Source: an uncultured Gammaproteobacteria bacterium
GTDB taxonomy: Bacteria; Pseudomonadota; Gammaproteobacteria; GCA-001735895
Length of the DNA: 64,000 nt
Reading direction: 5' to 3'
NCBI GenBank assembly: GCA_947260025.1
Contig: CAMYON010000029.1
Span: 1-64,000, forward strand
A model generated the notes under the pieces. It searched no databases. It was not told where the DNA came from and saw only the letters and a list, made by a program, of their open reading frames with translations. The translations under genes were made by a program, and so were the position numbers. Positions 3,754-9,825 of this stretch are shown here, one piece after another (within the stretch, counting starts at the first letter, position 1; every line of letters starts with the position of its first letter).

Positions 3754-3906
3754 GGGGGAACCTCATTCTTATTACTGCCATGTAACCTGCGAACAGGTTG
3801 CTATGCGCGTATTATGCGATTGAATTCGCTATCGGTAAACCACCATTATATATATTGGCCCGGATAATTTTTGTTAAACTCGTCGGATTTGGCAAGGGCT
3901 ATTTCC

Positions 3907-4125
3907 GTGAATGATTCACTTCTGGCCAGGCTGGAGCGTCTCGAAGCGCTTTACAGCGAGCAGGAATACACCGTCCAGGCATTAAACGACGTGATTGCGA
4001 CTCAGGATCGCGAGATTACCAACCTTACCCTCGGCATCGAGCGACTCAAGGAACAGCTCAAGACGCTCGGGGCAGAAACCTCCAGCGACATTAGTTCCGA
4101 AATCGAGAAGCCGCCGCATTATTGA
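3907..4125 (+). CDS. slyX: SlyX family protein
   Basis: A small all-helical protein of 72 residues: SLLARLERLEALYSEQEYT then ALNDVIATQDREI, the coiled-coil pattern of SlyX, ending in Pro-Pro-His-Tyr as is typical. The GTG at 3907 is preferred because the SlyX domain begins there; a TTG at 3871 would add 12 unrelated residues. Function is unknown in the family beyond its name. The stop overlaps the start of rsmJ (ATGA), so the two genes are translationally coupled. Confidence 0.86.
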   Translation: MNDSLLARLERLEALYSEQEYTVQALNDVIATQDREITNLTLGIERLKEQLKTLGAETSSDISSEIEKPPHY

Positions 4126-4826
4126 TGAATCCGCGCGCCGCTCTCGCCCGGGATACCCTGCCTGCGCTCGCACGCCAGGCGCCGATCGAGCTCGAAATCG
4201 AAACCGACGACGGGGGTGTCGTTATCCGCCTGCCACAGGCGCCGCTGTCGTTTCATCATAGCTTCACCAGCGGCGCGCTCGCCAAACGCGCGAGGCAATC
4301 GAAACAGGCGCTGCTCAGGGCCTGTAACAATAAGGCTCGCAGTATCCGCCAGGTACTCGATCTGACCGCCGGTTGGGGCGCGGATAGCCTGACCCTCGCC
4401 TGCCATGGACAGCAGGTCACGCTGCTGGAGCAGAATCGGCTGATCTATACCATCCTCGATTATTCACTGCAATGCCTGGCGTACGAGTCGGCCAGCAGCG
4501 AGGTCGCTGGGCGTATGCGACTCGAACAGGCTGAGGCCGGCGCTTACCTGCGCAAGCTTGCCGACGATCACGCTTTCGACTGTATCTATCTCGATCCGAT
4601 GTTTCCGAATCATAAATCCAGCGCCAAGCCTGCCAAGGAAATGCAAATTCTGCAGGCGCTAACCACCAACCTCGATATCGAGTCCTGCTTCGAGCTGGCG
4701 CTGCAAAAAGCCCGCAGGCGCGTCGTGGTTAAACGGCCGGCAAAGGCGCCTGATCTGACCGCGATCAAGCCCGACGTCGTTTACCGTGAAAAAACAATTC
4801 GTTTCGACGTCTATTTGACCGGCTAG
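4122..4826 (+). CDS. rsmJ: 16S rRNA m2G1516 methyltransferase RsmJ
   Basis: A 234-residue class I SAM-dependent methyltransferase. The SAM-binding motif DLTAGWGADSLTLA follows an N-terminal region with PLSFHHSF, and the catalytic-site block YLDPMFPNHKSSAKPAKEM plus RVVVKRPAKAP and RFDVYLTG are hallmarks of RsmJ (YhiQ). It methylates G1516 of 16S rRNA in the small subunit. It overlaps slyX by four bases. Its end is followed by about 48 bases and then the convergent yajQ, with no obvious terminator. Confidence 0.88.
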   Translation: MMNPRAALARDTLPALARQAPIELEIETDDGGVVIRLPQAPLSFHHSFTSGALAKRARQSKQALLRACNNKARSIRQVLDLTAGWGADSLTLACHGQQVTLLEQNRLIYTILDYSLQCLAYESASSEVAGRMRLEQAEAGAYLRKLADDHAFDCIYLDPMFPNHKSSAKPAKEMQILQALTTNLDIESCFELALQKARRRVVVKRPAKAPDLTAIKPDVVYREKTIRFDVYLTG

Positions 4827-4874: not shown

Positions 4875-5357
4875 CTAGTCCCGGAAATTGTTGAACTGTA
4901 GCGGGATTCCAAGCCCGGCCTCGCGCAGGTTTTGCATGACTTGCTGCAGGTCGTCCCGCTTCTTGCCAGTAACCCTGAGTTGCTCACCCTGGATCGCGGC
5001 CTGTACCTTGAGCTTGCTGTCCTTGATCAGTTTTACCATCTTGCGCGCCAGATCCTTGTCCAGACCCTCGCGCACGGTCACCGGCTGGCGTGCACGCTTG
5101 TTCATCTCGACAATATCGCCGAACTCGAGACAGTCGACATCGATGCCGCGTTTCGACATTTTCTCTTTGAGTATGGGCACCATTTGCTTGACCTGGAATT
5201 CCGACTCGGCTTCCAGCGCTAACTGGTTGCCGGCCTGCTCGATACGTGCATTCGAACCCTTGAAATCATAACGGGTGCCGATTTCGCGATTCGCCTGGTC
5301 GAGCGCATTACTCAACTCGTGGTGGTCGACTTCGGAGACAACATCGAATGAAGGCAT
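4875..5357 (-). CDS. yajQ: YajQ family nucleotide-binding protein
   Basis: A 160-residue protein of the YajQ family, recognisable from MPSFDVVSEVDHHELSNAL, RYDFKGSNARI and the C-terminal KKRDDLQQVMQ followed by LGIPLQFNNFRD. Members bind nucleotides, and the Xanthomonas and Pseudomonas homologues bind cyclic di-GMP. A c-di-GMP link would suit this window, which also encodes a diguanylate cyclase and a PilZ protein, but that is inference. It lies 13 bases downstream of the Rieske-like gene, so the two are likely cotranscribed. Confidence 0.92.
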   Translation of the reverse strand: MPSFDVVSEVDHHELSNALDQANREIGTRYDFKGSNARIEQAGNQLALEAESEFQVKQMVPILKEKMSKRGIDVDCLEFGDIVEMNKRARQPVTVREGLDKDLARKMVKLIKDSKLKVQAAIQGEQLRVTGKKRDDLQQVMQNLREAGLGIPLQFNNFRD

Positions 5358-5370
5358 ATTACTATCCTGC

Positions 5371-5898
5371 TCAGGGTCTGATCGTTAAGGTACTGAAATC
5401 CGTGGCAAAATTATAATCCGGAACATCCAGATTCCGAAACTTGTTTGCGCCCTTCAATGCCCTGCCGGCATAATCGTAGCGCGCCGCACTGCAGACTTCC
5501 CCGAGTTCCTTGCCGACAGCCGCAACCGGGCAGCCAAGATCGGTGCCGATCGCGTAGCTTACAAAATATCCGGGATGCCTCGAACGCAGGGGATTTCGCG
5601 CGAATTCAGGTTGACGGCTGTCGTCGGACCCCGGGTCCTGCAGATTATTCCCGGAATTCTCCAGTGCGGCAATGGTCTCGTCGGAACGCTTGATCACCAC
5701 TATCGCCAGGTTATCCTGACGTAATACTTCGACTCGATCGACAGCGAGATCGCGCAGACTGAAGCGGTAGGACTCCTGGATACCGGAGGGACGGATATCG
5801 ACCGCGAAATCGAGCAGGGTGTAAAGAAACGCGAAGACAATAAAGACAGCGCAGTACCTGATCAACGTTAACAGTAACTTTCTTTTCGCTAAACTCAC
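5371..5898 (-). CDS. Membrane-anchored Rieske-fold-like protein lacking Fe-S ligands
   Basis: A 175-residue protein with one N-terminal membrane segment (about residues 9-33) and a periplasmic domain. That domain reads like a Rieske domain of a bc1 complex. Residues 62-79 resemble the strand after the hinge. G118-T-D120-L-G-C123 lies where box I (C-x-H-x-G-C) should be, and E134-V-C136-S137 followed by RYDYAGRALKG lies where box II (C-P-C-H-G-S with RYD.SGR) should be; NLDVPDYNF matches the usual NLEVP.Y.F. All four cluster ligands (two Cys, two His) are replaced, but both disulfide-forming Cys remain (C123, C136). So it probably keeps the fold without a [2Fe-2S] cluster. It sits upstream of yajQ with a 13-base gap. 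Function unknown. Confidence 0.6.
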   Translation of the reverse strand: MSLAKRKLLLTLIRYCAVFIVFAFLYTLLDFAVDIRPSGIQESYRFSLRDLAVDRVEVLRQDNLAIVVIKRSDETIAALENSGNNLQDPGSDDSRQPEFARNPLRSRHPGYFVSYAIGTDLGCPVAAVGKELGEVCSAARYDYAGRALKGANKFRNLDVPDYNFATDFSTLTIRP

Positions 5899-6001: not shown

Positions 6002-6322
6002 TTACCCGAGTACAACGTCCTCACCGGCCTGCTCGCTACAGTAGCGACCCAGGCAACTGAATAGCTCCTCGCCGCTTCCCTGTAAGCGCCAGCACTCCCC
6101 GGCAGCATCGTAATCGAAATGATAACCGCCCGAGCGGGCCGCAACCCAGATTTGGGTCAGCGGGGCCTGCTTGTTGACAATAATCTGGCTGCCGTCGGCA
6201 AATTCCAGCGTCAGGATACCGCCCGCGTTGTCGTAGTCGATATCGACACCGCAATCCTCGATCGCCTCCTCGATTGCGACCATGGTGTCCTCGGCTATCT
6301 GGTCGAAATCGGACTCATTCAT
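6002..6322 (-). CDS. cyaY: Iron-sulfur cluster assembly protein CyaY (frataxin)
   Basis: A 106-residue bacterial frataxin: an acidic N-terminal helix (MNESDFDQIAEDTMVAIEEA) followed by the beta-sheet core with GGILTLEFADGSQIIVNKQ, PLTQIWVAARSGGYHF and DAAGECW. CyaY binds iron through the acidic ridge and modulates cysteine desulfurase activity on IscU in the cytoplasm. The ATG at 6322 is chosen because the family begins with this helix. The start lies inside the 3' end of msrB (8-base overlap), so the two genes are coupled. Confidence 0.9.
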   Translation of the reverse strand: MNESDFDQIAEDTMVAIEEAIEDCGVDIDYDNAGGILTLEFADGSQIIVNKQAPLTQIWVAARSGGYHFDYDAAGECWRLQGSGEELFSCLGRYCSEQAGEDVVLG

Positions 6323-6699
6323 CGCCGACAGCCTCGAAATCGAGCGACAGCGAATTGATGCAATAGCGCTTGCCCGTGCTGTCCGCGGGTCCGTCGTCGA
6401 ATACATGGCCGAGATGGCTGCCGCAGCGATCACACATGGCCTCGACCCGGCGCATGCCGAGGCTGCTGTCTTCCTCGTAGCGAATAACCTGGTCCGAGGC
6501 GGGCCTGTCGAACGAGGGCCAGCCTGAGCCCGAATCATACTTGTCGGTGGAAGCGAACAACAACTCGCCACAGCATTTGCATAGGTACTTGCCTGTCTGG
6601 TGGTTATGGTAGTACTCGCCACTGAACGGCGGTTCGGTGCCCTTCTCGCGGCACACCCGGTACTCTTCGGCACTCAGCTTACTGCGCCACTGTTCATCG

Positions 6700-6707
<8 letters not shown>
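6315..6707 (-). CDS. msrB: Peptide-methionine (R)-S-oxide reductase MsrB
   Basis: A 130-residue MsrB. Zinc-binding cysteines are C43/C46 (CKCC) and C92/C95 (CDRC), the substrate site is GSGWPSF, and the catalytic Cys is C116 in RYCINS. It reduces methionine-R-sulfoxide in proteins. The start at 6707 (MNDDEQW) matches family length; reading further upstream would only add sequence from the neighbouring gene. It overlaps the upstream membrane-protein gene by 8 bases and cyaY by 8 bases, forming a tight minus-strand run from ligA. Confidence 0.93.

Positions 6708-9825
<3,118 letters not shown>

Follow-up and report, generated by a model that had tools for sequence, protein, structure and literature searches.

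A cluster-free Rieske-like paralogue of PetA in Gammaproteobacteria and its possible relation to cytochrome bc1

What is a Rieske-like protein kept for once every ligand of its [2Fe-2S] cluster is gone, and does it still have to do with the cytochrome bc1 complex? The question was raised by a gene in a stretch of 64,000 nucleotides (referred to as the window) of an uncultured gammaproteobacterium (assembly GCA_947260025.1, contig CAMYON010000029.1, positions 1 to 64,000).

A Rieske-like gene without cluster ligands

The open reading frame runs on the minus strand from 5898, where a GTG start codon is found, to a stop at 5371, and encodes 175 amino acids (aa); the plus-strand translation of 5371-5898 contains stops. 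The position of the start codon (GTG or TTG) is the same in the closest relatives of the protein. The gene, its parts and its neighbours are as follows:

5371..5898, minus strand: coding sequence of the cluster-free Rieske-like protein, 175 aa, GTG start
5800..5856, minus strand: predicted N-terminal membrane helix, approximately residues 15-33, without an RRxFL Tat motif and without a PSxxA hinge behind the helix
5530..5547, minus strand: degenerate box I, G118-T-D-L-G-C123 (canonical CTHLGC), with C123 as retained disulfide cysteine
5482..5499, minus strand: degenerate box II, E134-V-C136-S-A-A (canonical CPCHGS), with C136 as retained disulfide cysteine
4875..5357, minus strand: yajQ (DUF520), conserved neighbour directly downstream of the ligand-less gene after a gap of 13 bp
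6002..6322, minus strand: cyaY (frataxin), conserved neighbour directly upstream of the ligand-less gene
4122..4826, plus strand: rsmJ-like SAM methyltransferase, conserved neighbour in 7/8 families
3871..4125, plus strand: slyX, frequent neighbour
6315..6707, minus strand: msrB-like gene, neighbour within the genus

Additionally, a small membrane protein encoded at 6700-7077 (minus strand) of the window, between ligA and msrB/cyaY, was conserved across the genus and the family and had no Pfam match.

The original prediction described a Rieske-like protein that had lost all four Fe-S ligands and kept the cysteines of the structural disulfide. Alignment with canonical PetA gave the same picture, with the replacements C to G, H to D, C to E and H to S at the ligand positions and the two remaining cysteines corresponding to the disulfide pair. 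The aligned set comprised 78 distinct ligand-less proteins from eight families of Gammaproteobacteria and 58 canonical Rieske proteins. C123 and C136 were present in all 78 ligand-less proteins, none of which had the box I Cys, the box II Cys or the box II His; the box I His occurred in three of them, one being ambiguously aligned. All four ligands were found in 58/58 canonical proteins, and no intermediate forms were seen among the 78 and 58 aligned proteins. The segments RYDYAGRALKG and NLDVPDYNF, previously noted as well conserved, were so in the alignment of relatives. The ligand-less protein cannot bind a [2Fe-2S] cluster in the usual way.

The window protein matched the NCBIfam model TIGR01416 with an E-value of 9.7e-13 and 48.5 bits, which is under the model cut-off of 97.4 bits, and a phmmer search against the PDB retrieved 7YR9, a Rieske PetA (E=2.4e-10). 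Judged from these sequence matches, its Rieske homology is not due to chance. An AlphaFold2 model built with only ligand-less sequences in the alignment, and thus without any canonical one, predicted a bc1-type Rieske fold with a pLDDT of 92.8. The best PDB match of this model was again 7YR9 (E=2.8e-11, TM 0.79 normalised by target length); bc1 Rieske chains of bacteria, mitochondria and plants came next. The original prediction would have been refuted by a fold that is not Rieske-like or by a different conserved core in homologues; it withstood both checks, C123 and C136 being invariant. The Pfam search gave no match to the NirD-type Rieske-like family, nor did any other Pfam model match the ligand-less family, and the PDB fold matches listed were bc1-type Rieske chains. 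Two distant ligand-less relatives (L171 of G146 and L182 of G360) scored above the TIGR01416 cut-off, with 106.6 and 105.8 bits, respectively; members of this type would be labelled by that model as functional bc1 iron-sulfur subunits despite having zero cluster ligands.

The N-terminal region also departed from that of canonical proteins. Of 43 ligand-less proteins, one had the Tat core RRxF[LIVM] and one the PSA/PSE hinge; among 52 canonical proteins the numbers were 40 and 46, respectively. The Pfam Tat-signal (PF10399) and Rieske models matched 0/42 ligand-less and 6/6 canonical proteins. Folded cofactor proteins usually require Tat export, so the loss of the Tat signal is in keeping with a protein that is at no stage loaded with a cluster. 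Judging by its one N-terminal helix, the charge pattern and homology, the head of the protein would lie on the periplasmic side. With the hinge and the membrane-helix signature of canonical proteins missing, it probably does not sit in bc1 in exactly the way PetA does.

Distribution and origin of the family

Orthologues were found in 27 of the 31 genomes of the same genus that were searched, counting the window's own genome. In a sample of the class, a profile search detected a ligand-less relative in 15 of 369 genomes, with a gap in score between ligand-less proteins (at least 147 bits) and canonical PetA (at most 137 bits). A search within one family (f146) detected the gene in most of 48 genomes, and 20 further loci retrieved from this family yielded 17 ligand-less proteins and three canonical PetA. 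One scan of genome contigs found only two close relatives. In a sample of the phylum comprising 399 genomes, searched with a strict cut-off, only the window's own genome matched, and among the rows listed there was none from another class. Our claim is accordingly limited to no ligand-less member having been found outside the class Gammaproteobacteria.

In a tree calculated with the box columns masked, ligand-less and canonical proteins fell on opposite sides of one branch with an SH-aLRT of 100; the search behind this tree was short and its alignment was made with the profile of the ligand-less proteins, so that it is not a final phylogeny. Independent local decay in each genus is not supported, given that one branch parts all ligand-less from all canonical proteins with the boxes masked. 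In 11 close pairs dN/dS ranged from 0.12 to 0.39, and the gene is under purifying selection. The yajQ/rsmJ/cyaY/slyX neighbourhood was conserved in 7/8 families: at loci with enough flanking sequence the ligand-less gene was at or near yajQ and/or rsmJ, usually with cyaY or slyX, the exception being a locus of G054 (L114). The simplest account is that the gene arose once, was inherited mostly vertically and was lost repeatedly. The original prediction had also called the protein neofunctionalised, a view supported by its retention in eight families, the dN/dS values, the synteny and the coexistence with intact PetA. The ligand-less gene thus represents an ancient paralogue family and not a local decay.

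With respect to the neighbourhood itself, no conclusion was drawn on a functional link with cyaY, whose product frataxin takes part in Fe-S assembly, as the stretch is a housekeeping one and the position of the gene relative to cyaY varies between families. At two loci (L119:760-4532 and L121:6722-10104, in G029 and G015, respectively) a protein of 807-812 aa and its neighbours replace cyaY/msrB beside the ligand-less gene; the L119 copy of this protein showed weak PKD and cytochrome-c matches. A further neighbour, encoded at L112:6533-7003 (NQTYVGIHNDLHGGMTPIG...), was conserved in several families and had no Pfam match. One genome (G785) carried two ligand-less copies (L223 and L247).

Coexistence and co-loss with cytochrome bc1

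An intact petABC is present in the window's genome, on a contig (L031) different from that of the ligand-less gene, which therefore lies outside the pet operon. Of 16 genomes with the ligand-less gene, 15 had a canonical PetA scoring above the NCBIfam cut-off; the exception (G226) is 86% complete. Co-occurrence with bc1 across the class is uninformative as evidence, because PetA is present in most of the sampled class. In one genome (G302) three canonical petA copies were found alongside the ligand-less gene.

Within the genus, G004 (97% complete) is a clear case of bc1 loss. Its petABC has shrunk to a single ORF in which the N terminus of PetA is fused to the C-terminal membrane anchor of PetC (L209:5883-6236, minus strand), flanked by intact genes that, by resemblance, we named NIF3/DegS-like and SspA/SspB-like. 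In the same genome cyaY is followed by yajQ with approximately 65 bp between them and no ligand-less gene. In G024 (98% complete) all that is left of petABC is the tail of petC, next to sspA, and this genome likewise has no ligand-less gene. The two genomes were placed in separate clades of the genus, and therefore petABC and the ligand-less gene were lost together at least twice independently. In the other 26 genomes of the genus in which both could be judged, both were present; by our own arithmetic, uncorrected for relatedness, such a match would arise by chance with a p of approximately 0.003. Two genomes were set aside from this count, namely G027 (neither ligand-less gene nor petB) and G021 (gene present, no petB), as sspA, the neighbour of petABC, was found in neither, and G007 is without the yajQ region. 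The firm co-loss events are two only. At the site that the ligand-less gene occupies in its relatives, G024 has, directly beside yajQ, a gene for a small protein containing the haem motif CxxCH (L201:1987-2373, minus strand).

The dependence appears to be one-way. Many bc1-bearing genomes, including G031 and G033 of the same family, have PetA and no ligand-less gene, so bc1 does not need it. In the other direction, none of the f146 genomes at least 90% complete had the ligand-less gene without PetA, and the genus agrees; in G021, which is 88% complete, and in G226 the ligand-less gene was found and no bc1 detected, and their assemblies may be incomplete. Joint loss with the bc1 genes in at least two lineages suggests that the protein is an unrecognised helper of the bc1 complex. 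In the genomes without bc1 the COX1 homologue that scores highest in the window's genome is missing as well, and therefore the link may be to the branch formed by bc1 and the cytochrome oxidase and not to bc1 alone.

The explanation that we favour, to which we give a probability of about one half, is that this cluster-free ancient paralogue of PetA is an accessory protein, structural or for assembly, of cytochrome bc1 or of the bc1-cytochrome oxidase branch. The paralogue would go back to one early event in a part of the Gammaproteobacteria and have stayed at the yajQ/rsmJ/cyaY locus since then. It would be anchored by its single N-terminal membrane helix, with no Tat signal, and in its Rieske-fold head the C123-C136 disulfide, in place of a [2Fe-2S] cluster, would hold the structure together. 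This head could bind a partner surface also recognised by the heads of canonical iron-sulfur proteins (ISP), on cytochrome b/c1 or on the ISP itself, and so stabilise the complex or aid its assembly without carrying electrons. Ligand loss, fold, single origin, selection, and the coexistence and co-loss with petABC were computed; the periplasmic position of the head, the physical contact with bc1 and the structural or assembly role are inferred.

The strongest alternative, although an unlikely one, is that the cluster-free Rieske fold serves in the envelope for something other than bc1, for example as a scaffold or binding module, the co-loss then reflecting a wider change of lifestyle or respiration. 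The separate and conserved housekeeping neighbourhood, the missing canonical hinge, the differences in COX1 homologues that accompany the absence of bc1 and the small number of firm co-losses would all suit it. It must be considered, however, that G004 and G024 keep other respiratory genes, since COX1-family matches persist in both although petABC and the ligand-less gene are gone, and that the f146 genomes of at least 90% completeness, as indicated above, never carry the gene without PetA. We regard as doubtful a role as a dedicated mimic of the ISP, in which the cluster-free head would occupy the docking position of the Rieske head on cytochrome b/c1, either to keep the place or to regulate. 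The protein would then be a non-catalytic Rieske subunit, encoded apart from the pet operon, that holds or protects the quinol-oxidation site at times when the genuine head is missing or has moved away.

The conserved residues of the former cluster site suggest two other functions. C123 and C136 are two of only three fully invariant residues in the 78 ligand-less sequences, as might be expected if this disulfide were redox-active and did the work of the protein, by sensing or by thiol exchange in the periplasm. This seems improbable, because the same pair is structural in canonical ISPs and is kept in the ligand-less ISP of Acidocella (PMC10715153), so that structural retention is simpler, and because the protein lacks both a CxxC motif and a further conserved pair of cysteines. 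A little less probable still is that the old cluster site has been turned into a site for another ligand or metal through the acidic replacements D120 and E134. Position 1 of box II is D or E in 74/78 ligand-less proteins, D is the commonest residue at position 3 of box I (54/78), and Zn can occupy the same site in canonical PetA (PMC10492824). Nevertheless, D120 is variable (G, Y, S, A, Q, T and H occur), the f49 members and two others have no acidic residue at box II, and a salt bridge or cap explains the acidic residues equally well. Finally, a decaying pseudogene or an assembly artefact would account for the loss of every catalytic ligand, but for the family as a whole it is ruled out by a frame open in all genomes found, a dN/dS far below 1, the invariant residues, the spread over eight families, the conserved synteny and the independence of the assemblies.

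Comparison with known systems

The ligand-less protein shares with canonical PetA (TIGR01416, PF00355 and PF10399) the bc1-type fold, the single N-terminal helix and the disulfide pair, as well as the QP and RS motifs of the head and the GR and NL-xP motifs. It differs in having lost the four ligands, the Tat motif and the hinge and in forming a separate clade, and its gene lies outside the pet operon and coexists with canonical PetA. A precedent for a cluster-free Rieske-like fold is NirD, the small subunit of the NADH nitrite reductase, which is without cluster ligands and has a structural role beside the enzyme. NirD is soluble and cytoplasmic, belongs to another branch of the Rieske superfamily and was absent from the top PDB matches listed for the AlphaFold2 model.

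The closest case of ligand loss is the ISP of Acidocella, in which three or four of the cluster ligands are lost and the disulfide cysteines kept (Degli Esposti et al., 2023, PMC10715153), and for which a structural role of the bc1 proteins has been proposed (PMC10715153). In that Alphaproteobacterium the protein is the ISP encoded in petABC itself, and its bc1 is deranged (PMC10715153), whereas the protein described here is an extra paralogue at another locus, beside an intact petABC, in Gammaproteobacteria. The best structural match, 7YR9, is the immature Zn form of the PetA of Thermochromatium tepidum, in which the cluster site is formed before insertion of the [2Fe-2S] cluster (PMC10492824); a Rieske head can therefore fold without its cluster. 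Unlike the ligand-less protein, the T. tepidum PetA has all its ligands and matures to the cluster form. In addition, subunit IV of the Rhodobacter sphaeroides bc1 (fbcQ) is a small single-helix accessory protein encoded outside the bc1 operon (PMC10041115), which shows that a bacterial bc1 can have an accessory subunit of this kind. It is not reported to be Rieske-related and is only a functional analogue.

Our literature searches found no description of a family of ligand-less Rieske paralogues. The pattern of ligand loss thus has a precedent in Acidocella, while the literature searched contained no case of an ancient, selected and separate paralogue in a genome with an intact bc1. If the protein is indeed a bc1 accessory, it would represent an overlooked class of bacterial respiratory subunits, and the family would offer a test of the use of the Rieske fold without its cofactor. 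Cluster loss in Rieske proteins has so far been linked to a deranged bc1, as in Acidocella, or to the distant NirD; here, stable, ancient and syntenic cluster-free paralogues of the bc1 type have been kept alongside a bc1 that looks functional and have disappeared together with it.
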